From Candidatus Omnitrophota bacterium (GTDB taxonomy: Bacteria > Omnitrophota > Gorgyraeia > Duberdicusellales > 4484-171): a stretch of DNA of 10,358 nt. Both the position numbers and the translations under genes were made by a program. Location: positions 1 to 10,358 of the forward strand of contig JAUVUO010000031.1 in NCBI GenBank assembly GCA_030601015.1, in the 5' to 3' direction. The notes under the pieces are model-generated. The model was given only the letters and a program-made list of their open reading frames with translations, made no database searches and was not told the origin of the DNA. Positions within the stretch are counted from its first letter, which is position 1. Each line of letters starts with the position of its first letter. Shown here piece by piece: positions 50 through 9,356 of the stretch.

Positions 50-1450
50 TTATCTTATTATTTTAGCTGTAATAAAAATTAAAAGATCAGTTTTTTCTAA
101 AGTATCGCCTTTACTGCTAAAGAAGAAACCTAATAAAGGTATATCACCCAAAATAGGTACTTTTTTCTTAGTCTTAATTTTATTTTCCGAGATAAGACCT
201 CCAATAGCCAATGTCTGGCCATTATCAATTATAACTTTAGTTTGTACACTACGAGTAGCATAAATCGGCCTCTCGCCATTGGGTCCTGTAGAACCTATAA
301 TCTGTTCAATCTTGGGATTTATATCAAGAGAAATATAATTTTTATTTTGAATAGTAGGAGTAACAATAAGTCCTATTCCTACTTTTTTATCGCTATAACC
401 AGAAATAGTTTGATTCCCTGTTTCTTTACTAAAGGTATATTCTGGTATAGGGACAGTTTGACCAACAAAAATTTCTGCTTTTTGGTTATTTAAAGTAAGA
501 ACCTTAGGATTAGAAATAATATTAGTATCAGACGTTGAATTTAAGACTTCCAAAACAGCCTGAAACTGAGAAAAGTTTAAAGTTCCAAAAAGAAAATTAC
601 TAGCTGAAGCTTCCGGAAAACCAGAAGCTAATTTATGCCACGTTTTTTCTTCTGTAGTAGTAGTAACATTTCCAGTACTATCCGTAGTTGTTGTAGTAAT
701 TTTTTCCAAATCACTAGGCACACTTACTCTTGGAAACATTTTAGTCCCTGTGCCTTTAATAGCATCTGTAAAAGGAAAAGTCGTCGGCCTCGAGGAACCG
801 GCAGCAGCTATTTTCAAGTTCCAGTCAATTCCTAATTTTTCTGTTTTCCCTAAACTTATTTCAATCATTTTTGCTTCTATTAAAACCTGTTCAGTCATTA
901 TATCTAACAGTGATAATGTCTTTTCTATTTTTGCCAAATTAGATTGAATATCGGTTATAACTATACTATTAGAATTGGTATTAGAAGTTATTTTTCCCCT
1001 AGAGGTTAAAAGATTTGTTAACACATCCAAAACATCTTCTACTTTCACAAAATTTAAAATAAATACCCTGGTATCTAAAGCTTCAATCTCTTTAGCTTCT
1101 AAAGCCTTTTGCCGTTTCTCAGCTAAATTTTCAAATGTATCTACTAAAATAATGGTATCGCCAATCCATTCATATCCGTAATTATAAGTTTTTACAATCG
1201 CATCCAGAGCAGTTACCCAATCAACACTTTCTAAATTTATACTAACCGGCCCTGTTACACCCGGGCCGACCACAATATTTACTTTCCCCCCATCCTTAAC
1301 AGCTTTTTCCGCTATTGATTCTAAAACTATTTTAATATCTGTATCCTTAAACTTTATAGACGAAATTATACTCTCCTGAGCCCAAACAACATTAGAGAAT
1401 AAAATACAAATACAAAAACTCAATAAAATCAGTTTTCCTTTTCTTTTCAT
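50..1450 (-). CDS. pilQ: Type IV pilus secretin PilQ (compact form)
   Basis: Outer-membrane secretin that should form the gated ring through which the pilus exits. Seen in the 466-residue product: a hydrophobic signal peptide (about 1-24, ending VVWA before QES); an N0/STN-like domain (about 30-105); a KH-like secretin N1 domain (about 128-185); and the secretin core from about 190 to the end. The core carries the family signature VPILGDIPLLGFFF at 431-444 and NTNIISNP-like and GLIVTP-like blocks. A threonine-rich insert sits at 252-266. It lacks the N-terminal AMIN domains of proteobacterial PilQ (about 700 residues), so it is a short version. The start has a strong Shine-Dalgarno (GGAGG, 4 bases upstream) and overlaps the pilP stop as ATGA. 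It is last in the pilus operon. A type II secretion GspD is the alternative, but the PilM-P context favours PilQ. Confidence 0.9.
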   Translation of the reverse strand: MKRKGKLILLSFCICILFSNVVWAQESIISSIKFKDTDIKIVLESIAEKAVKDGGKVNIVVGPGVTGPVSINLESVDWVTALDAIVKTYNYGYEWIGDTIILVDTFENLAEKRQKALEAKEIEALDTRVFILNFVKVEDVLDVLTNLLTSRGKITSNTNSNSIVITDIQSNLAKIEKTLSLLDIMTEQVLIEAKMIEISLGKTEKLGIDWNLKIAAAGSSRPTTFPFTDAIKGTGTKMFPRVSVPSDLEKITTTTTDSTGNVTTTTEEKTWHKLASGFPEASASNFLFGTLNFSQFQAVLEVLNSTSDTNIISNPKVLTLNNQKAEIFVGQTVPIPEYTFSKETGNQTISGYSDKKVGIGLIVTPTIQNKNYISLDINPKIEQIIGSTGPNGERPIYATRSVQTKVIIDNGQTLAIGGLISENKIKTKKKVPILGDIPLLGFFFSSKGDTLEKTDLLIFITAKIIR

Positions 1451-1803
1451 TCTTCCTCCAGTTTTAAGGTAGATATTTCTTTATCTTTTTTTAAGACCAC
1501 TTTTTTTTCCTCTATCTCGATAATTTCATATAAACCAATTTTATCACCAATCCGCAAGACTTCATCATTAATTATAGCCAATGATTCCCCATCAGCATAA
1601 ACTATACCTTTTAAAGCCAAACCTTTAGCATCTACCTCCTCATAAATCAATATAAGGCCGTTTTTGTTAATTAAAGGCGCAAAAGGGTCCCTATCTTGTT
1701 TAGTATAAGGATATACCAATTCTTTTGACAAAACATATTTCATGTTAGCCATTAATAAAAAAACGCTTACCAATAATATTATTTTTCTTCTACCAATCCG
1801 CAT
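1447..1803 (-). CDS. pilP: PilP-like periplasmic pilus assembly protein
   Basis: Small periplasmic protein of 118 residues that in type IV pilus systems links the PilN-PilO inner-membrane complex to the N0 domain of PilQ. Seen: an N-terminal hydrophobic segment (about 7-25); the PilP hallmark RDPFAPL at 38-44; then a beta-rich homology region (about 60-112) with LKGIVYADGESLAII and LRIGDKIG, typical of PilP/GspC folds. The protein contains no cysteine at all, so it cannot be lipidated, unlike classical PilP lipoproteins. It may be held by its uncleaved N-terminal helix or be secreted. The start lies 25 bases inside the pilO end, and the last four bases overlap pilQ. Family call rests on motif plus position; sequence similarity to textbook PilP is probably low. 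Confidence 0.8.
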   Translation of the reverse strand: MRIGRRKIILLVSVFLLMANMKYVLSKELVYPYTKQDRDPFAPLINKNGLILIYEEVDAKGLALKGIVYADGESLAIINDEVLRIGDKIGLYEIIEIEEKKVVLKKDKEISTLKLEEE

Positions 1804-2321
1804 ATTTCCATCTCAATAAAGTTATCTTTATCCTCAGGGGATATTTCTAAACTTTTTATTTCAAAAAAATATTTACTGCTTTGAAGCTGGTCTAAAAAAT
1901 TAGCGAAATCATGAAAATTACTTTTAGATTTAATTCTAATAGGCAAAAGCTTAAATTCCTCAAGCTTTGCTGATGGGTACTCCTGGAGATGCCCCGGTAA
2001 AATAGTTTTAATTTTTACTCCGCAATCTTTACTTTTTGACGATATAAATGATATTAAAGTAGAGGATTGCTTATACAAAATAGATTTATTATGAATCTCT
2101 TCTATTTTCTTACTCAAATCATTTCTCTTAGACACATATATCTTTTTATTAGGCCAGTCTATTTCTATACTTTTGATTTTTTGAGAAATTTCATTATTCT
2201 TTTTATTTAAAGTGACAATTCTCTTTATTCCGGCCGGCAACAATACTACGGCCTCAAATATAAGGAATAACGAGGCCGTTAAAAAAATAATTAATTGTTT
2301 GTCTATCTTTATTTTTCGCAT
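1779..2321 (-). CDS. pilO: PilO-like inner-membrane pilus assembly protein
   Basis: Bitopic inner-membrane protein of 180 residues, expected to heterodimerise with PilN. Seen: a short basic cytoplasmic N-terminus, one transmembrane helix (about 9-30), a charged coiled-coil-like stretch (about 34-78) and a C-terminal domain (about 85-178) with the alternating pattern of a ferredoxin-like PilO fold, including LLPIRIKSKSNFHDFANFLDQL. This last block is the recognisable part of PilO families (IxxxGxYxxLxxFLxxL-like). The start overlaps the pilN end by 13 bases with no good Shine-Dalgarno, which suggests translational coupling to pilN. The assignment depends largely on topology, domain pattern and position between pilN and pilP. 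Confidence 0.82.
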   Translation of the reverse strand: MRKIKIDKQLIIFLTASLFLIFEAVVLLPAGIKRIVTLNKKNNEISQKIKSIEIDWPNKKIYVSKRNDLSKKIEEIHNKSILYKQSSTLISFISSKSKDCGVKIKTILPGHLQEYPSAKLEEFKLLPIRIKSKSNFHDFANFLDQLQSSKYFFEIKSLEISPEDKDNFIEMEICGLVEEK

Positions 2322-2911
2322 TTCACACTGAATTTCAAAACTTCAATCCCGTTAAATTTGACTTGCTCCGACTCTGTCATATTAACATTTTCAAATTTAG
2401 ATTTGAAATATTCCTGTTTCATTAAATTATTTATAAATTTGTCCACCGAAGACAAATAATCATCTTGCCACTTCACAACAAATCCTTTAAGAACCATACG
2501 TTCTCCTGTAAAACTTAATTTACTAAACCATATATTTTTGGGCAAGGCCGCGTATATCTCACCTAAAATAAGAGCAATATCATTTTTAGGATTAACAACA
2601 CTTTCCAAATCTATCTTTACTTTTTCTAAATTAACAATTTCGCTCTTGATTGATTGAATTTCATTAGACTTAATTCCCCATTCATTCCATTTATTATTCT
2701 TAATATTAACATTACGCGTTTGCCCCATAATAAAAAGCTGAAGCAGCAATAGTATAGGCAAAATAAAAATAACGGATAGAATAATCAGAGGAGTAGAAGA
2801 AATTAATTTTTGTAAAAATAAACCCGGAGATTCTTCTTTTTTAGGGTTTAAATTAATAACTATTTTAGTAAATCCGTTTAATGAATTTTTTTTATTCGAA
2901 AGTTTAACCAT
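2309..2911 (-). CDS. pilN: PilN-like inner-membrane pilus assembly protein
   Basis: Bitopic inner-membrane protein of 200 residues that couples cytoplasmic PilM to the periplasmic PilO/PilP. Seen: cytoplasmic tail with INLNPKKE at about 19-26, equivalent to the INLLP motif by which PilN tails dock into PilM; a transmembrane helix (about 40-62); a coiled-coil-like linker (about 75-105); and a periplasmic domain with AALPKNIWFSKLSFTGERMVLKG at about 121-143, whose LPxxxWxxxL pattern is typical of PilN. The start codon is preceded by AGGGG about 6 bases upstream. It overlaps pilO downstream and is separated from pilM by 86 bases, the only real gap in the pilus operon. Confidence 0.87.
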   Translation of the reverse strand: MVKLSNKKNSLNGFTKIVINLNPKKEESPGLFLQKLISSTPLIILSVIFILPILLLLQLFIMGQTRNVNIKNNKWNEWGIKSNEIQSIKSEIVNLEKVKIDLESVVNPKNDIALILGEIYAALPKNIWFSKLSFTGERMVLKGFVVKWQDDYLSSVDKFINNLMKQEYFKSKFENVNMTESEQVKFNGIEVLKFSVKCEK

Positions 2912-2997
2912 TGTTACCCCTGATAATCAAATTTTTTTAATGAATCGTCGGTTAAAAAACAATCTCTAATATTACAAAAAATTAAACATATATCAGC

Positions 2998-3999
2998 CTA
3001 TACGGTTAACCCAAAAATTACAGAAAAATTATCTTTAAAAGAGTTGAATTTATTCTCTGAAATGTCTTCTTTTAAACTATTCCATTTTTCTGACGGTACC
3101 TTTATAGCTTCTATTTTTGTACCTAAAAATTTCAAAAACATATCTTCTAATCCTTCAATTGAAAGCAAACCTCTATTAATAAAAAGGCTATCTATAAGTT
3201 CGCCTTTATTTACCTCAAAATAGTCAAAAGAACTTTTAAGTTCTTCGCAAAGATTAGATATATTATCCTGAGCCAAGGATAAAAATTCTTCTTTATTTTT
3301 CGATAATAAAGCCCAATTTTCTACATCATCCAGAGGTATCTCTTTAACTCTTGAGACAACTTCATAAATGTCTTTTATGCTAAATTTAATATCCCTGGTA
3401 ATAAAAGGAAATCCTTTATTCAATATGCTCATTACAGAAAAATTATATCCCAAATCCAATATACAAACATTTAAATTTTTCGTTTCCTCAGGATAAGCCT
3501 CTCGGAAAAAATTAATAAGAGCTATGCTGTCTAAATTAATTTCTAATACATCTAAATTAACTTTTTTAAAACTTTCTAAAATTGGATCAATAACGTCTTT
3601 TTTAGCAACTGCCAATATGATAAATAGTTCTGAAGGATTTAATTCTTTTAACACAAAAAAATCAAAATATACTTGATTAGAAGGGAAAGGTATATATTTA
3701 TTTAATTCAAAGGTTAAGACTTGCCGGATTTTCTTTTTATCCATTTTTGGGAAAGAAAAATATCTTACCAAACAAAAAGGATTTTTTATAGAAAGCTTTA
3801 CCTTTCTTGAAGATATTTTTTTAGCTTCCCATACTTTTTTTAATAACGGAGGGAGGTCTCTATTCCTTTCTATAAAATAGTTCTTAGCTGTCCCTTGTTC
3901 AAAGACCAACCCTTTTACATAGTAATTATCTAAACTAATTACAGTAAAACTTTGTGATCCTTTTTCAAAAAACTTATTCTGTAGGAGGGTCATTAACAC
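2998..3999 (-). CDS. pilM: PilM-like actin-fold pilus assembly protein
   Basis: Cytoplasmic actin-like protein (333 residues) that should form a ring under the pilus base and bind the PilN tail. Seen: the PilM hallmark VLTFELNKYIPFP at about 94-106; a second actin-fold strand pair LDLGYNFSVMSIL at 181-193 (phosphate-2-like); and FINRGLLSIEGLEDMF at 273-288, the position of the adenosine motif. The first phosphate loop, expected as GxDxGxxxxK, reads SLDNYYVKGL (22-31), so glycines are missing. Nucleotide binding may be weak or lost. The most likely start is GTG at 3999 with GGAG 6 bases upstream; an ATG two codons downstream is the alternative. It begins 26 bases inside the pilin gene. Ends with TAG, after which the frame stays open for 27 codons. 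Confidence 0.85.
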   Translation of the reverse strand: MLMTLLQNKFFEKGSQSFTVISLDNYYVKGLVFEQGTAKNYFIERNRDLPPLLKKVWEAKKISSRKVKLSIKNPFCLVRYFSFPKMDKKKIRQVLTFELNKYIPFPSNQVYFDFFVLKELNPSELFIILAVAKKDVIDPILESFKKVNLDVLEINLDSIALINFFREAYPEETKNLNVCILDLGYNFSVMSILNKGFPFITRDIKFSIKDIYEVVSRVKEIPLDDVENWALLSKNKEEFLSLAQDNISNLCEELKSSFDYFEVNKGELIDSLFINRGLLSIEGLEDMFLKFLGTKIEAIKVPSEKWNSLKEDISENKFNSFKDNFSVIFGLTV

Positions 4000-4399
4000 T
4001 TGCTTCTCCGCTAGAGTTATGCCTTATAATTCCGGTTTCATCCAAATAAAAATATCTTGTTCCCGTTCGGCCCAGTCTTTTTGGATTAGCATTCATAGTA
4101 AAGGTATCTTCGTCAATTCGCTGATAAACAAATAAATATCCTGATCTGGAACCGCTAACCAAAGCCGGGCTAATATATGGCGACATATCAGAAAAAGACT
4201 GAGGATATTGCTTGCCGTTGTCATTATAGTAAATAATAAAAGCTGTATGTAATGCTCTCAGATTAGAGATTGTCGTAACTTCATTGGATGTAATATTAGA
4301 TCTTATCATACTGGGAATAGATATCCCTGCCAATATCATAATAACAGCCAAAATAATCATTACCTCAATTAATGTAAACCCTTTCGAGAACATCTTCAT
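3974..4399 (-). CDS. Type IV pilin-like / pseudopilin protein
   Basis: Prepilin of 141 residues. Seen: a six-residue basic leader before the prepilin peptidase site SKG|FTLIEV (cleavage after Gly7), with the conserved glutamate at mature position 5, followed by a hydrophobic helix (about 8-30). The globular part contains no cysteine, so the disulphide-bonded loop of many type IVa pilins is absent. Its C-terminal region (about 100-141: ANP, GRTGTRYFYLDETGIIR, ending in NDPPTE) resembles the GspG-like pilins with a GxTGxRxFxxDxxGxIR block found in several environmental phyla. It is the first gene of the pilMNOPQ operon. Whether it is the major fibre subunit or a minor pilin cannot be told. ATG at 4399 is taken as start; a second ATG two codons downstream is equally compatible with the leader. 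Confidence 0.88.
   Translation of the reverse strand: MKMFSKGFTLIEVMIILAVIMILAGISIPSMIRSNITSNEVTTISNLRALHTAFIIYYNDNGKQYPQSFSDMSPYISPALVSGSRSGYLFVYQRIDEDTFTMNANPKRLGRTGTRYFYLDETGIIRHNSSGEASVNDPPTE
4003..4009 (-). promoter_or_regulatory. Shine-Dalgarno supporting the GTG start of pilM
   Basis: GGAGAAG on the minus strand, inside the pilin coding region. GGAG sits 6 bases before the GTG at 3999 and 12 bases before the in-frame ATG at 3993, so it favours the GTG start. Confidence 0.55.
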
Positions 4400-4697: not shown

Positions 4698-5279
4698 ATG
4701 AAAAAAACTTTAAACATTGTACTTGATACAAGCATTTTTGTTAATCCTGATTCCAGATATGTTTTCGGCAATAGCCCCATAGAAGCTTTTAATAATTTTT
4801 TAGATAAAGTTACCGGCAAAAAACATATCAGCTGTTATATGCCTCCTACGGTATATGAAGAATTGCTTAATTTTCTTGAATATTCCCCATCCCCGGAAAA
4901 AAATATCTTAATAACAAAAAAACCGCCATCATCATACCAATCATCTATACCAAGTATTTTTCTATATGAGTTTATAGAAGAGATGCGTTCTAGAATAAAT
5001 AAAGGGTTAAGAATCGCTGAAAAATATACCCGGAAAGGCCTAAAAGAATCTGTTTATTCCAGAGAAAAAGAAGAGGCAACTATACAAAAATTGAGACAAG
5101 AGTATAGGCCTGCATTAAGAGAAGGCATCCTTGATAGTAAAGAAGACTTTGATCTGGTATTAATTTCTAAAGAAATCAATGCTTATTTGGCTACATCCGA
5201 TAACGGACTTATAAAATGGGCTCATAAATTAGGTATAACTTGTATTAATTCTGAAGAATTAAAGGAGGTGATTTCATGA
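4698..5279 (+). CDS. HARP-type RNA-free RNase P (PIN-domain endonuclease)
   Basis: Predicted minimal protein-only RNase P, which removes the 5' leader from precursor tRNAs. The family (homologues of Aquifex Aq_880; earlier named UPF0278 or RNA ligase partner protein) consists of about 190-residue PIN-domain proteins that assemble into large oligomers. Seen in the 193 residues: the N-terminal PIN strand with VLDTSIFVNPDSRYVFG (8-24, catalytic Asp10), CYMPPTVYEEL (46-56), a long helical insert (about 85-140, the spike-helix region, with YEFIEEMRSRINKGLRIAEK) and the acidic cluster LDSKEDFDLVL (145-155, Asp146, Asp150, Asp152) followed by ATSDNGLIKWA (165-175, Asp168). From memory this spacing matches the acidic set of Aq_880, with Asn169 where that protein has a second Asp. 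It heads a four-gene operon. A toxin of the VapC type is unlikely: there is no antitoxin and the insert is family-specific. Confidence 0.9.
   Translation: MKKTLNIVLDTSIFVNPDSRYVFGNSPIEAFNNFLDKVTGKKHISCYMPPTVYEELLNFLEYSPSPEKNILITKKPPSSYQSSIPSIFLYEFIEEMRSRINKGLRIAEKYTRKGLKESVYSREKEEATIQKLRQEYRPALREGILDSKEDFDLVLISKEINAYLATSDNGLIKWAHKLGITCINSEELKEVIS
5262..5272 (+). promoter_or_regulatory. Extended Shine-Dalgarno inside the HARP 3' end
   Basis: AAGGAGGTGAT is complementary over 11 bases to the usual 16S rRNA 3' tail and lies 7 bases (from GGAGG) before the ATG at 5276. It is inside the last HARP codons, so the downstream YbjQ gene should be translated strongly, either by re-initiation or independently of HARP. 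Confidence 0.85.
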
Positions 5280-5599
5280 TATTAACAAACATTGAATCTG
5301 TCCCCGGGAAAAAAATCATTGAACACTACGGCCTGGTTTCCGGCTCTACTGTAAGGGCCCGGCATGTTTTTTCAGATATGGCCGCTGGATTCAAAAATGT
5401 AATAGGCGGAGAATTAAAAGGTTATACTCAACTGCTTAGTGACTCCCGAAAACAGGCAATTCAAAGAATGATTGAACAAGCCGAGCAGCTTGGCTCAAAC
5501 GCGATAGTCAATGTCAGATTTTCAACGTCTTCAGTAACTCAAGGAGCTGCCGAACTATATGTTTATGGAACAGCTGTAAAAGTACAAAATATTGAATAG
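5276..5599 (+). CDS. ybjQ: YbjQ-family (UPF0145/DUF74) protein
   Basis: Small soluble protein of 107 residues, the same length as E. coli YbjQ, with the YbjQ_1 domain over its whole length. The family is often labelled putative heavy-metal binding from structural work, but its physiological role is unknown, and this copy has no cysteine and only two histidines. Seen: IEHYGLVSGSTV (15-26), the GG-containing block IGGELKGYTQLLSDSRKQAIQRM (43-65), the LGSNAIVNVRF block (72-82) and the C-terminal VYGTAVKV (96-103), all in family order. The ATG overlaps the HARP stop (ATGA) and has an unusually strong ribosome binding site. The next gene carries a second copy of the same domain, suggesting mixed assemblies (inference). 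Confidence 0.93.
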   Translation: MILTNIESVPGKKIIEHYGLVSGSTVRARHVFSDMAAGFKNVIGGELKGYTQLLSDSRKQAIQRMIEQAEQLGSNAIVNVRFSTSSVTQGAAELYVYGTAVKVQNIE

Positions 5600-5608
5600 G
5601 AGATAAAT

Positions 5609-6253
5609 ATGGGTGACCTATTAATACTTATGGTTATGCTTGCCGGAACTTATTTAATCGGCACAAAGGTAATAGAAAAAAACCATTATAAATCTATAGA
5701 AAAAAGAGAAAAAAACTTCCTGTTTCTTCCTGCAGTAAATTCTAAAAATGTTATAGATCAAACCCAGGGGATAGAAAGCGCGAAAATAGTTTACGGCTGC
5801 ATAGTTATTTCAATTGATTTTTTTAAACAATTTTTAGGCGGTATCATAAATTTGTTCGGCGGAGAAATGACTTCTTATGAAACTGTTATTGACCGGGCGA
5901 GAAGAGAAGCTATTTTAAGGATGAAAGAAAGCTCTCCTGATGCGGATATTATTATTAATACCCGTATCGAAACTTCAACTATAGGTAATTCAAGAAAAAA
6001 AAGTGCCGGGTGCAGTGAAATAATTGCTTACGGAACCGCGATTAAATATAGAGGTTCTGTTACCGAAAAGGTAAAAAAAGAACTTGAAACAGAAAAATTG
6101 ATAAAAAACAAGCAAATCGAAAAAAAAGTAAAAGAAACTAAAACAAAAAACATCGTTGAACCAATAATTAAAAATAATTTATTTGAATATATAATATTAT
6201 TTACCGGAATTATCATGTTTATTTTTTTGATAGGCCTCTTTTTGAAAAAATAA
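5609..6253 (+). CDS. Membrane-anchored YbjQ-domain protein
   Basis: A 214-residue protein in which a YbjQ-like domain lies between two predicted transmembrane helices. Seen: N-terminal helix (about 4-20); YbjQ domain (about 38-148) with FLFLPAVNSKNV, the GG block FLGGIINLFGGEMTSYETVIDRARREAILRM (75-105), ADIIINTRIETS and the end AYGTAIKY (140-147); a strongly charged Lys/Glu linker (about 150-182), probably helical; and a C-terminal helix (about 192-212) ending in LKK. The first and last helices would put the domain on one side of the membrane as a hairpin loop; the lysine-rich linker suggests the cytoplasmic side (inference). It follows the soluble YbjQ by 9 bases with a good AGGAG site and precedes the M48 protease by 22 bases. 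Function unknown. Confidence 0.85.
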   Translation: MGDLLILMVMLAGTYLIGTKVIEKNHYKSIEKREKNFLFLPAVNSKNVIDQTQGIESAKIVYGCIVISIDFFKQFLGGIINLFGGEMTSYETVIDRARREAILRMKESSPDADIIINTRIETSTIGNSRKKSAGCSEIIAYGTAIKYRGSVTEKVKKELETEKLIKNKQIEKKVKETKTKNIVEPIIKNNLFEYIILFTGIIMFIFLIGLFLKK

Positions 6254-6275: not shown

Positions 6276-7121
6276 ATGCGCTATGTTCCTAAAAAAATTA
6301 GAGAGAATGTAAATATTTCTTCTAAATCACCGATAAAACAACTATTATCTCTTCTTATAGCTCTTACTGGGGCCCTTTTAGTTATTTATATCCTATTAGG
6401 ATTTGCAGTAAATATAATAGCCCCTAGATTACCTGAAACGGTTGAAAATAGTATAAGTAAATTCTATAAACCTATATATTTAAATAATCGAATTGGTTCA
6501 AACGAAGAAAAAAAAATACAACTATTGCTGAATGATATAACTAAAAAATTGAAATACAAACAAAAGTATCAAGTATATCTCATAAATAATGACAATATAA
6601 ACGCCCTAGCTTTACCCGGAAAAACCATAGTTATTTTTTCCGGGTTACTTAAAGAACTCGATAGTGAAAACGAACTAACTTTTGTATTAGGGCACGAATT
6701 AGGACACTTCGCGAACAATGACCATTTGAAGGTTTTGGGCAGAAACGTAGTTCTTTTTACTTTATCTACAATTGTATTTGGACAAAACAATTCTTTAAAT
6801 AACTTTATCGGAAGATCACTTACAAAAGCCGAAATGAGATTCTCTCAAACCCAGGAAACAAATGCCGACATTTACGCGATTAAAGTATTAAACCAAAAAT
6901 ATAAACATGTCGGAGGCAGTACGGATTTTTTAAAAAAGATTTCTAAGAAAATTCGCGCTCCAAAATATTCTTATTTATTCGCGACCCACCCGCATCCTGA
7001 AAACCGGATTAAGGCCATAAAAAAAGAAATTAAACAAAAAAAATATCCTGTTAAAGCAACAATCCCTTTGGATAAATCTATCAAAGATAGTTTGTCTAAA
7101 AAACTCGCCGAACAAAATTGA
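6276..7121 (+). CDS. M48-family membrane-anchored zinc metalloprotease
   Basis: Zinc endopeptidase of 281 residues with the gluzincin fold of the M48 family (HtpX, Ste24, Oma1, BepA/LoiP). Seen: one N-terminal transmembrane helix (about 20-49); the NALALPGKTIVIFSGLL block (109-125) before the active site; the zinc motif HELGH at 140-144 (His140, Glu141, His144); third ligand Glu194 in ETNAD (194-198), with Asp198 the usual partner; and the late THPHPENRI block (237-245). Only one clear membrane helix is present, unlike the four of HtpX, so it resembles Oma1/LoiP-like soluble-domain proteases with a single anchor. The C-terminus adds a lysine-rich tail. No convincing Shine-Dalgarno precedes the ATG. 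M48 enzymes commonly degrade misfolded envelope proteins; linkage to two YbjQ proteins suggests a shared task (inference). Confidence 0.93.
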   Translation: MRYVPKKIRENVNISSKSPIKQLLSLLIALTGALLVIYILLGFAVNIIAPRLPETVENSISKFYKPIYLNNRIGSNEEKKIQLLLNDITKKLKYKQKYQVYLINNDNINALALPGKTIVIFSGLLKELDSENELTFVLGHELGHFANNDHLKVLGRNVVLFTLSTIVFGQNNSLNNFIGRSLTKAEMRFSQTQETNADIYAIKVLNQKYKHVGGSTDFLKKISKKIRAPKYSYLFATHPHPENRIKAIKKEIKQKKYPVKATIPLDKSIKDSLSKKLAEQN

Positions 7122-7159: not shown

Positions 7160-8119
7160 TTATATTTTTACAATAACTGTAATGATTTCTCTGATTATAT
7201 CCTGAATTGTAATAATACCGTATTCTTTATTTCCTTTTATCACTAGAGCCAAATTTTCTTTCTCATTCTTTAGCCTGGTAAAAACTTCTTGGATATTTTG
7301 ATTAAACCCCACTTTCGCTATAGGCCTTATAACCGATTGCCAATTTTCTTTGGGATTATAAAATAAATCATAAATATTAATGTACCCCACAATTCTTCTA
7401 TCCTTAAAAATCGGGTATCTGGTAAATTTTCGTTTGCTTAAATCCTTTAATATTGTTTCGCGGGAATCTGTATAATCAAAAGCTGATATGTTTTTCCGCT
7501 GCACACAAATATCTCTGATTTTATCCCTTTTAAACTCAAAAACTTCCTCTATAGCTTCCTTTTCTCCCCTATCCATTCCTCCTTCTTTTTCTATTTGATT
7601 AATTAACAGCTTAATTTCATCTTTAGTTACAAACAATGACTTTTTTTTAGGTTTTCTTATAAATATTTTAACTAAATATTTACTAATTATCTCTATACTT
7701 TCTACTATCGGCAGGAATATTTTTTCAAAAAAAATAATTATTTTTACTACATTACAGCTAAAATCTTCTCTTAAAAATCTACCGATATTCTTAGGGATAA
7801 GCTCAGCAAATATAACCATAAATGGGGTAAAAATAAAAGTTATCCATACGAAACTGTCTTTTACGCCAACTCTAATCAGAAAAAGAGTCAACAAACTTGA
7901 ACTTAAAACTAAAGCTATATTCATTCCAACTAAAATCGTCGCTAAAAATCTTTCCGGTTTCAGAATCAATTCATATACTTTTTTGGCATTTTTATCACCT
8001 TGATTTACCTGATATCTTAGCTTATGAATACGGGATGAAATAAAACTTATTTCACTGGCAGCAAAAATGCCATGCAAAACTACAAATAAAATACAACTCA
8101 ATAAATAAAAAAAATCCAT
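7160..8119 (-). CDS. DUF21/CBS membrane protein, CNNM/CorC family, short form
   Basis: Integral membrane protein of 319 residues related to the CNNM/CorC (hemolysin C-like) divalent cation transporters, which are implicated in Mg2+ or Co2+ export. Seen: DUF21 transmembrane domain (about 1-150) with the start FAASEISFISSRIHKLR (19-35), ATILVGMNIALVLSSSL (60-76) and AELIPKNIGR (105-114, the conserved GExxPK region, here Ala for Gly); then a linker and a CBS-domain pair (about 200-315) with RYPIFKDRRIVGYINIYDLF (234-253) and YGIITIQDIIREI (300-312). It ends just after the second CBS domain and lacks the C-terminal CorC_HlyC domain that the neighbouring paralogue has. The start is 10 bases after that gene with GGAAGGGG just upstream. 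Substrate is not known. Confidence 0.9.
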   Translation of the reverse strand: MDFFYLLSCILFVVLHGIFAASEISFISSRIHKLRYQVNQGDKNAKKVYELILKPERFLATILVGMNIALVLSSSLLTLFLIRVGVKDSFVWITFIFTPFMVIFAELIPKNIGRFLREDFSCNVVKIIIFFEKIFLPIVESIEIISKYLVKIFIRKPKKKSLFVTKDEIKLLINQIEKEGGMDRGEKEAIEEVFEFKRDKIRDICVQRKNISAFDYTDSRETILKDLSKRKFTRYPIFKDRRIVGYINIYDLFYNPKENWQSVIRPIAKVGFNQNIQEVFTRLKNEKENLALVIKGNKEYGIITIQDIIREIITVIVKI

Positions 8120-8129
8120 TCCCCTTCCT

Positions 8130-9356
8130 TTAAACTATTTTAAATTTATTAATATCAATGATTACATTCACAATTCTTCTGGCTGTAGCCCGTTCTATAG
8201 TAAAAATAATATTCTTAAACTCAATTTTCTCATTTGACCGTGGAATTCTCTCCCATTTAGAAAGTAAAAATCCGGCGATGGTATCTTCATCCTCAGGGAT
8301 ATCCAAATTCAAAGTCATATTGACACTCTTAATCGGAGTTTTTCCTGAAACCATCCACTTGTTATTACTTATTTTCACCATAGATTCCTCTCTTTTTTCA
8401 AATTCATCATACATTTCACCAAATATTTCTTCAGTAATATCTTCAAAAGTGATTAAACCTTCCGCTCCCCCATATTCATCAAGAACAATAGCTATTCTCT
8501 CATTATTTTCTAAAAATAATTTCAAAAGATCATCTATTCCTTTACTTTCGGGGATAAACATAGGGCTGCGAAGGGAATCATGATAATCCTTATCCAAATT
8601 TAAAAAAACATCTTTGGAATAGAGTATCCCGACGATATTATCTAATGACCCTTCATAAACCGGGAATTTAGAGTGTTTTTTAGCACGCAAAACATCTAAG
8701 ACTTCTAATTGACTTAATTTTGTATCAATACCTTCAATATCTATCCTGGGAATCAATATCTCACTAGCTTGAGTATCTTTAAATTCTAAAACATGGCTAA
8801 TCATTTTTTCTTCTTGCTCTGAAATTTGTCCGTCTTTTTTGCTTTGAAGTAAAGTTGCTTTAAACTCTTCATCACTTAAAACTGATTTTTTAGGTTTTTT
8901 TATCATAAAACATGTAAAACTATCAACAATCTTTTCTATTGCCAGAATTATAGGATAAAAAATTTTAGAAAAAAATATTATTATAGGAGCAACAATTAAA
9001 GATAATCTACCCGCCATATGTATCGCGAAAGTCTTAGGAAATACTTCGCCTATAACAAGTATAATAATACCGCTAAAAAATACCGCCAAAAAAAAGCCGT
9101 TTTCACCTAAAGCTTTAACAAATATTGCCGTAGATAAAGACGCGATACTGATATTAACTAACATATTCCCAAAAACAATAGCCGAAAGAAGACGAAGAGG
9201 GTTTTTTAAAAGAGTTTTAACTGCTTTGGCCTGGGGATATTTCTCTGAAAGTTTATGCAATTTGAAACTGCTTAAAGAAAATATAGCAGTCTCAGACGCG
9301 GAAAAAAATGCCGACAACAAAATAAACAAAATAAAAAACAATACATTTACTATCAT
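8130..9356 (-). CDS. DUF21/CBS/CorC_HlyC membrane protein, CNNM/CorC family
   Basis: Full-length 408-residue member of the CNNM/CorC transporter family. Seen in order: DUF21 transmembrane domain (about 1-155) with FFSASETAIFSLSSFKLHKL (17-36), VFGNMLVNISIASL (61-74) and IGEVFPKTFA (102-111), the GExxPK signature implicated in cation binding; CBS pair (about 195-312) with FPVYEGSLDNIVGILYSKDV and the very typical VLDEYGGAEGLITFEDITEEIFGE block (291-314); and a C-terminal CorC_HlyC domain (about 325-405) with WMVSGKTPI and DEDTIAGFLL. Older annotations call such proteins hemolysins; a transport or regulatory role in Mg2+/divalent-cation homeostasis is better supported. Its ATG overlaps the upstream radical SAM stop by four bases (ATGA), with GGGG just upstream. 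Confidence 0.93.
   Translation of the reverse strand: MIVNVLFFILFILLSAFFSASETAIFSLSSFKLHKLSEKYPQAKAVKTLLKNPLRLLSAIVFGNMLVNISIASLSTAIFVKALGENGFFLAVFFSGIIILVIGEVFPKTFAIHMAGRLSLIVAPIIIFFSKIFYPIILAIEKIVDSFTCFMIKKPKKSVLSDEEFKATLLQSKKDGQISEQEEKMISHVLEFKDTQASEILIPRIDIEGIDTKLSQLEVLDVLRAKKHSKFPVYEGSLDNIVGILYSKDVFLNLDKDYHDSLRSPMFIPESKGIDDLLKLFLENNERIAIVLDEYGGAEGLITFEDITEEIFGEMYDEFEKREESMVKISNNKWMVSGKTPIKSVNMTLNLDIPEDEDTIAGFLLSKWERIPRSNEKIEFKNIIFTIERATARRIVNVIIDINKFKIV

Follow-up and report, generated by a model that had tools for sequence, protein, structure and literature searches.

HARP, a Protein-Only RNase P, Appears to Have Replaced the RNA Enzyme in a Group Within Omnitrophota

The HARP Locus and Its Surroundings

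The window analyzed here, a stretch of 10,358 nucleotides, belongs to an Omnitrophota metagenome-assembled genome (MAG; G000) of 1,471,541 bases in 241 contigs with 80.65% completeness. It contains a gene for HARP, an open reading frame (ORF) with an ATG start whose coordinates, checked on the window sequence, are exact (Table 1). Its immediate neighbors are a divergently oriented pilin gene upstream and a YbjQ gene downstream. The upstream cluster was recognized by profile matches to an N-methyl pilin, PilM, PilN, PilO and a PilQ/GspD-type secretin, and also includes an ORF of 118 amino acids with a sub-cut-off match to T2SSB; within its limits, the window thus bears out the type IV pilus context proposed earlier. 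A scan of the window's ORFs found no PilB, PilC or PilT, and the window contained no tRNA and no Rfam match at gathering score. The co-directional run downstream of HARP recurs infrequently: of 38 Omnitrophota HARP loci, 5 have the first YbjQ gene, 5 the second and 4 the M48 peptidase. Its members are neighbors, not parts of RNase P. The two CNNM/CorC-type genes beyond them occur near HARP in 24/38 and 26/38 of these loci. A locus from the same genus (G001, L126) encodes a HARP that is 86% identical and has the block from HARP to a radical SAM gene in common with the window.

Table 1. Features of the HARP locus, with positions in the window.
Feature	Coordinates	Strand or orientation	Basis
Type IV pilus type cluster (pilin, PilM, PilN, PilO, secretin)	50-4399	divergent from HARP	
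HARP (protein-only RNase P) CDS, 193 aa	4698..5279	+	PF08745, TIGR03875, PDB matches to RNA-free RNase P, AlphaFold2 pLDDT 91.5
D10-T11-S12 codons, active site (Aq880 Asp7-Thr8-Ser9)	4725..4733	+	alignment to 8kd9
Spike (protruding) helical hairpin, residues 86-141; predicted dimerization and tRNA-elbow binding	4953..5120	+	model helices, residue conservation
Acidic cluster D146 S147 E149 D150 D152 (Aq880 D138 S139 E141 D142 and next Asp)	5133..5153	+	alignment to 8kd9
D168, fourth essential Asp (Aq880 D160)	5199..5201	+	alignment to 8kd9; 48/48
N169, variable, non-catalytic	5202..5204	+	Glu161 aligned in 8kd9
YbjQ-like protein 1	5276-5599	+	Pfam; overlaps HARP stop by 4 bases
YbjQ-like protein 2	5609-6253	+	Pfam
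M48 peptidase	6276-7121	+	Pfam
Two CNNM/CorC-type proteins	7160-9356	convergent with HARP run	7160-8119 protein without CorC_HlyC match

Family Identity, Predicted Fold and Conserved Residues

The original prediction had assigned the 193-residue PIN protein to HARP from its layout, and every element of that layout was found: VLDTSIFVNPD, CYMPPTVYEEL, a long insert, LDSKEDFDL and ATSDNGL. In the Pfam search the protein matched PIN_5 (PF08745) over nearly its full length (E 1.8e-57, 194.5 bits against a cut-off of 27). No other Pfam family, PF01850 (PIN/VapC) included, was listed at E <= 0.001. TIGR03875 scored 193.8 bits with a cut-off of 95.3. Neither VapC nor another PIN subfamily scored better. 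A PDB search returned seven distinct sequences with E from 8.7e-49 to 3.4e-35. All of them carry the name 'RNA-free ribonuclease P', and 7e8k was the best solved relative; an eighth row, with E 0.91, was unrelated. Database homologs with an organism name were Candidatus Omnitrophota/Omnitrophica. Identity as HARP is firmly supported by these sequence comparisons, and the protein is a new member of a known enzyme family.

The PIN fold of this HARP is likewise predicted from sequence. An AlphaFold2 monomer model, built on a 48-row HARP alignment (34 window or Omnitrophota loci and 14 database homologs), had a mean pLDDT of 91.5 and a pTM of 0.83. The helical hairpin expected of a HARP was present in this model as two long insert helices (residues 86-115 and 122-141).

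Residues of the Aquifex protein Aq880 served as the reference for function. Its active site is described as Asp7, Asp138, Asp142, Asp160, Thr8, Ser9, Ser139 and Glu141, and its elbow-binding site as Arg94, Arg96, Lys99, Arg102, Arg125, Arg129 and Arg133 (Teramoto 2021, PMC8405995); the R129A variant is reported as inactive and R125A as nearly so (Feyh 2021, PMC8266387). PDB chain 8kd9, which carries these residues at the reported numbers, was used as the Aq880 frame. In the alignment to it, the HARP studied here matched Aq880 at all the positions assigned to catalysis or to binding of the tRNA elbow, including all seven of the elbow cluster (R97, R99, K102, R105, R133, R137 and R141, in the order of the Aq880 residues above). 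Across the 48 aligned HARPs the four catalytic Asp and each elbow Arg were invariant (48/48), and K102 was kept in 46/48. The columns of D10, T11, D146, S147, D150 and D152 were likewise conserved in 48/48, and that of S12 held Ser in 38/48 and Asn in 10/48. At the position of Aq880 Glu141 (E149 here) Glu occurred in 42/48 and Gln in 6/48 aligned HARPs.

An active-site variation had also been suggested at Asn169, on the ground that Aq880 has Asp there. This did not hold: 8kd9 has Glu161 at that position, and its conserved Asp160 aligns with D168, the catalytic Asp. The N169 column varies freely among the 48 HARPs (N, K, L, Q, H, G, T, C, S, E or F), and Asn169 was ruled out as an active-site variant.

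Distribution of HARP, rnpA and rnpB

The original prediction left open whether HARP stands alone here or beside the ribozyme. In the host genome, rnpB (RF00010) was not found in a full search in which 11/11 candidates were scored, nor was rnpA (PF00825), with control genomes positive in both searches. One list of 97 relatives from the same class was then used for HARP, rnpA, rnpB and ligase searches. Families f1 (the host's own) and f2 form the host's order, and f13 and f14 are further HARP families. HARP was present in 33/37 genomes of f1, 4/5 of f2, 2/2 of f13 and 1/1 of f14, in total 40/45, where the f1 count takes in a fragment broken by a contig end (G025, locus L069). The HARP-negative genomes of f1 and f2 (5/42; G004, G018, G032, G034, G039) agree with the 5.6 expected from incompleteness. 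Neither rnpA nor rnpB was detected in the genomes of these four families (0/45 for each), two of these genomes being single contigs; the ribozyme and its protein were thus found neither in the host nor in the sampled HARP families.

The other 52 genomes of the class had the opposite pattern, with no HARP, rnpB in 48 (47 over the cut-off), rnpA in 39 and at least one of the two in 52/52. Their RF00010 scores reached 307.6 bits, and the single match below the cut-off, in G081, scored 69.9 bits. Four genomes (G073, G080, G082, G088) had rnpA and no RF00010 match. RNA searches across several genomes used stricter filters than the search of the host, and at most 13 candidates per genome were scored in the 97-genome set and at most 4 in a phylum-wide draw.

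This draw comprised 334 Omnitrophota genomes, of which 270 had rnpB, 146 rnpA, 125 both, 291 either and 43 neither. Genomes with neither were 30 with HARP, the HARP-negative G004 and G039, and 11 that were absent from the above-cut-off HARP listing. None of the 30 genomes with an above-cut-off HARP had rnpA or rnpB (0/30). Because the genomes are related, this pattern reflects few independent events and not 334. Weak PF08745 rows below the cut-off, which covered only the C-terminal part of the profile in ORFs of 278-383 amino acids, were not counted as HARP (G012, G017, G030, G034, G165, G228, G341, G155, G106, G309, G164, G194).

As a separate observation, 145/334 Omnitrophota genomes had rnpB without a PF00825 rnpA. 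These genomes also lack HARP, and their RNase P RNA may work with no protein of the usual kind, or with a substitute or a strongly diverged form of it.

The rpmH Locus, the rnpB Core Pattern and the Need for 5' Cutting

The usual place of rnpA, between rpmH and yidD, was inspected in chosen genomes. The gene rpmH was sought in 18 of them and found in 16; two of the 13 HARP genomes (G022 and G038) gave none. All 11 HARP genomes with rpmH had the order rpmH-yidD-yidC without rnpA, among them the host (locus L077 on its contig C4) and the single-contig genomes G002 and G005, and rpmH and yidD overlapped by 4 bases in all 7 f1 genomes. The three rnpA-positive controls (G075, G064, G253) all had rpmH-rnpA-yidD-yidC. 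The rnpA-less order is also that given for Aquifex aeolicus in a 2024 JBC review (PMC10941002). A subset of the proteins at these loci was assigned by Pfam (YidD in five loci and one further locus, RnpA in L078, YidC in L074), and the rest were named by sequence likeness. In two HARP-less f26 genomes (G065, L076; G094, L079), one of them a single contig, yidD also directly followed rpmH.

The core motifs of rnpB and the T-arm/CCA pattern of tRNA were used in their usual form, and the rnpB motifs were then checked on 30 rnpB genes. The 3' core pattern ACAGAANNNGGCTTA was present in 28/30 relatives' rnpB. As a check that needs no RNA model, it was searched in the genomes and matched in 9/42 f1/f2 genomes (G005 included), 0/3 f13/f14 genomes and 47/52 of the others, and a reversed control pattern matched in 6/42 f1/f2 genomes. 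Matches in annotated rnpB had CCC, CTC, TCC or TTC as spacer; those in f1/f2 had scattered spacers and none of these four. In view of the reversed control and the spacers, the f1/f2 matches are taken as chance. One rnpA-positive genome (G082:C19:3703-3717) had the core pattern with a TCC spacer, as in real rnpB, yet no RF00010 match; its rnpB was probably missed by the filtered search.

Need for a 5'-processing activity is suggested by tRNA gene spacing. Within 400 kb sampled from G005, tRNA genes lie 24 and 32 nt apart on one strand. Such gaps would be too short for separate promoters, so that 5' cutting would be required, an argument also made for Aquifex in the review (PMC10941002).

Absence of the RNA Ligase Partner

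A Pab1020-type RNA ligase had been expected beside HARP, in line with a report that 89% of HARP genomes, and 164/178 of the bacterial ones, also have an Rnl3 ligase (Seshadri and Gopalan 2025, PMC12153264). This expectation failed: TIGR01209 was found in 0/97 genomes, with two archaeal controls positive. With one ligase protein as query (both the query and a second match correspond to TIGR01209), an Rnl3-type ligase was found close to HARP in 19/42 non-Omnitrophota loci and in 0/76 Omnitrophota locus records, which include the same contigs listed twice and some short flanks. For this clade, 'RNA ligase partner protein', as such proteins are called in the database, is a misleading name.

Proposed Role and Alternative Explanations

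From these sequence comparisons we infer that this bacterium and its clade very probably have a single RNase P, a catalytically intact HARP; this reading covers both the activity of HARP and its role as sole enzyme. As in Aquifex, monomers would pair through the spike-helix hairpin and the dimers would assemble into a higher oligomer. There the Arg/Lys cluster of one dimer would grip the tRNA elbow while the active site of a neighboring dimer (D10, D146, D150, D168 and metal ions) would cut the 5' leader. An ancestor among Omnitrophota would have carried HARP, with the rnpB ribozyme and the rnpA protein lost afterwards, in one or more events, although this order of events is inferred. Four recombinant bacterial HARPs are reported to have formed oligomers without cutting pre-tRNA (PMC12153264).

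An improbable alternative is that HARP is an accessory nuclease (a back-up, or active in tRNA storage or ligase-coupled processing) and that most of the RNase P work falls to a highly divergent, unrecognized RNA. Archaeal HARP knock-outs are reported to grow normally beside the ribozyme (PMC10941002, PMC12153264), and a very divergent RNA could escape RF00010, as the 69.9-bit match in G081 and the four rnpA-positive genomes without a match illustrate. However, the same model recovered rnpB in 48/52 non-HARP genomes of the class and in 0/45 of the HARP families, and rnpA is missing too, including from its usual place between rpmH and yidD. Since no ligase was found, a ligase-coupled role cannot explain HARP here.

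Far less probable still is that the lack of rnpA and rnpB is an artefact of assembly or binning. The gaps of the host genome prove little alone, because it is an incomplete MAG in many contigs; most of the other genomes are also draft MAGs, and completeness is rated at 79% and 84% even for the two single contigs. Against this, rnpA or rnpB is retained in 291 of the 302 other Omnitrophota genomes drawn, both single-contig HARP genomes lack the two genes, and on contiguous DNA yidD follows rpmH with no rnpA in between. The naive log10 probability of chance loss in all 42 f1/f2 genomes is -39, a figure that ignores relatedness and shared assembly bias.

That the protein is instead a VapC-like toxin or another PIN nuclease is highly unlikely. 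In structural terms HARP is placed with VapC among the PIN proteins (PMC10941002), but a VapC toxin was rejected on PF08745 as sole Pfam family at E <= 0.001, on 7/7 PDB matches at E <= 1e-10 being RNA-free RNase P and on the RNase P set of Asp and Arg being invariant in 48 rows. The recurrent neighbor identified is CNNM/CorC.

A possible correlate of HARP-only processing was considered and rejected. For one HARP, cleavage of pre-tRNA that bears CCA is reported to be about 10-fold slower (PMC12153264). Matches to the T-arm plus CCA pattern had a median of 9 per genome in the 42 f1/f2 genomes versus 20 in the 52 genomes with the ribonucleoprotein enzyme (Mann-Whitney p 1.8e-7, relatedness ignored). 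Avoidance of encoded CCA is nevertheless no rule for HARP-only genomes: the two f13 genomes had 40 and 37 matches and the f14 genome 4, and 9/35 ribonucleoprotein families averaged 12 or fewer. Given these high counts beside the f1/f2 median, the HARP of f13 (G052, G085) must probably handle CCA-bearing precursors.

Comparison With Known HARP Systems

In the host's group within Omnitrophota, HARP appears to have replaced the RNA enzyme with which nearly all other bacteria trim their transfer RNAs, and to have done so without the usual RNA ligase. The closest parallel is Aq880 of the Aquificaceae, where HARP is the sole RNase P: it belongs to the same family, shares the catalytic and elbow residues and has the hairpin insert (predicted here), and Aquificaceae likewise lack rnpA and rnpB, with rpmH-yidD-yidC without rnpA reported for A. 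aeolicus (PMC10941002). The two cases differ in phylum and in setting, some HARP-only Omnitrophota coming from cold places and the Aquificaceae being thermophiles. HARPs of Nitrospirota, Planctomycetota, WOR-3 and other bacteria are 46-51% identical to the one studied here and differ in the ligase that adjoins part of their loci, as described above. Archaeal HARP, which is of the same PIN_5/TIGR03875 family and occurs with a Pab1020-type (Rnl3) ligase, is described as coexisting with the ribozyme and as dispensable in the two species tested, in contrast to the ribozyme-free and ligase-free genomes found here.

Most bacterial genera with HARP are reported to have RnpA as well, and the HARP-only genomes named are Aquificae (Aquificaceae), a few Nitrospirae and some unclassified bacteria (Daniels 2019, PMC6380272); the 2024 review describes the replacement as limited to a small group of thermophiles (PMC10941002). 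No report of HARP-only Omnitrophota was found in the open-licence PMC literature, and supplementary lists (of the mBio paper and the Daniels 2019 figshare) could name Omnitrophota. What is new here is a HARP-only, ligase-free clade in a new phylum. This further, large case, which includes Antarctic-lake lineages, counts against the views that the replacement requires high temperature and that HARP depends on the RNA ligase as its partner, and it supplies many diverse HARPs for assay that should be under housekeeping selection.

Evolutionary History and Setting

A HARP tree of 79 rows was examined, which excludes L023 and the fragment L069 and uses no named duplicates of loci. Its 42 non-Omnitrophota HARPs come from the 80 best of 436 loci, a sample that lacks distant HARPs such as that of Aquifex, and they form one side of a branch with support 96/67 and 94% of bootstraps. 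Family f1 is one side of another branch (98/92), and the single row of f14 lies nearest the non-Omnitrophota side. Together with the recurrence of CNNM/CorC beside HARP, the tree points to old, mostly vertically kept genes. A YidC tree (15 rows, G003 left out) grouped f1 with f2 (95/96), with the rnpA-less f26 as a possible sister (83/79); its branches do not decide the positions of f13 and f14, which may not be sister to f1/f2.

Many relatives keep rnpB without detectable rnpA, and on this ground we propose, tentatively and as a rather doubtful order of events, that rnpA was lost first and that HARP then took the place of the weakened RNA, without participation of an RNA ligase, in an order of Omnitrophota not confined to hot places and in two further families. 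As to setting, two HARP loci are from Ca. Susulua stagnicola and Ca. Kappaea frigidicola, whose genomes (G031, G304) had neither rnpA nor rnpB and which are described from an Antarctic lake (PMC8542988). Other HARP record names refer to fen, sludge digester, marine plankton and lakes, and some to Tibet or possibly a vent field; with names so mixed, 'not confined to hot places' is all that they bear.

A minor observation concerns the genome G214, which has rnpA as well as two matches to rnpB. A weak sub-cut-off PF08745 match there (G214:C87:5028-5366, profile positions 37-146), interrupted by two internal TAG codons, is possibly a decayed HARP, or a chance similarity.
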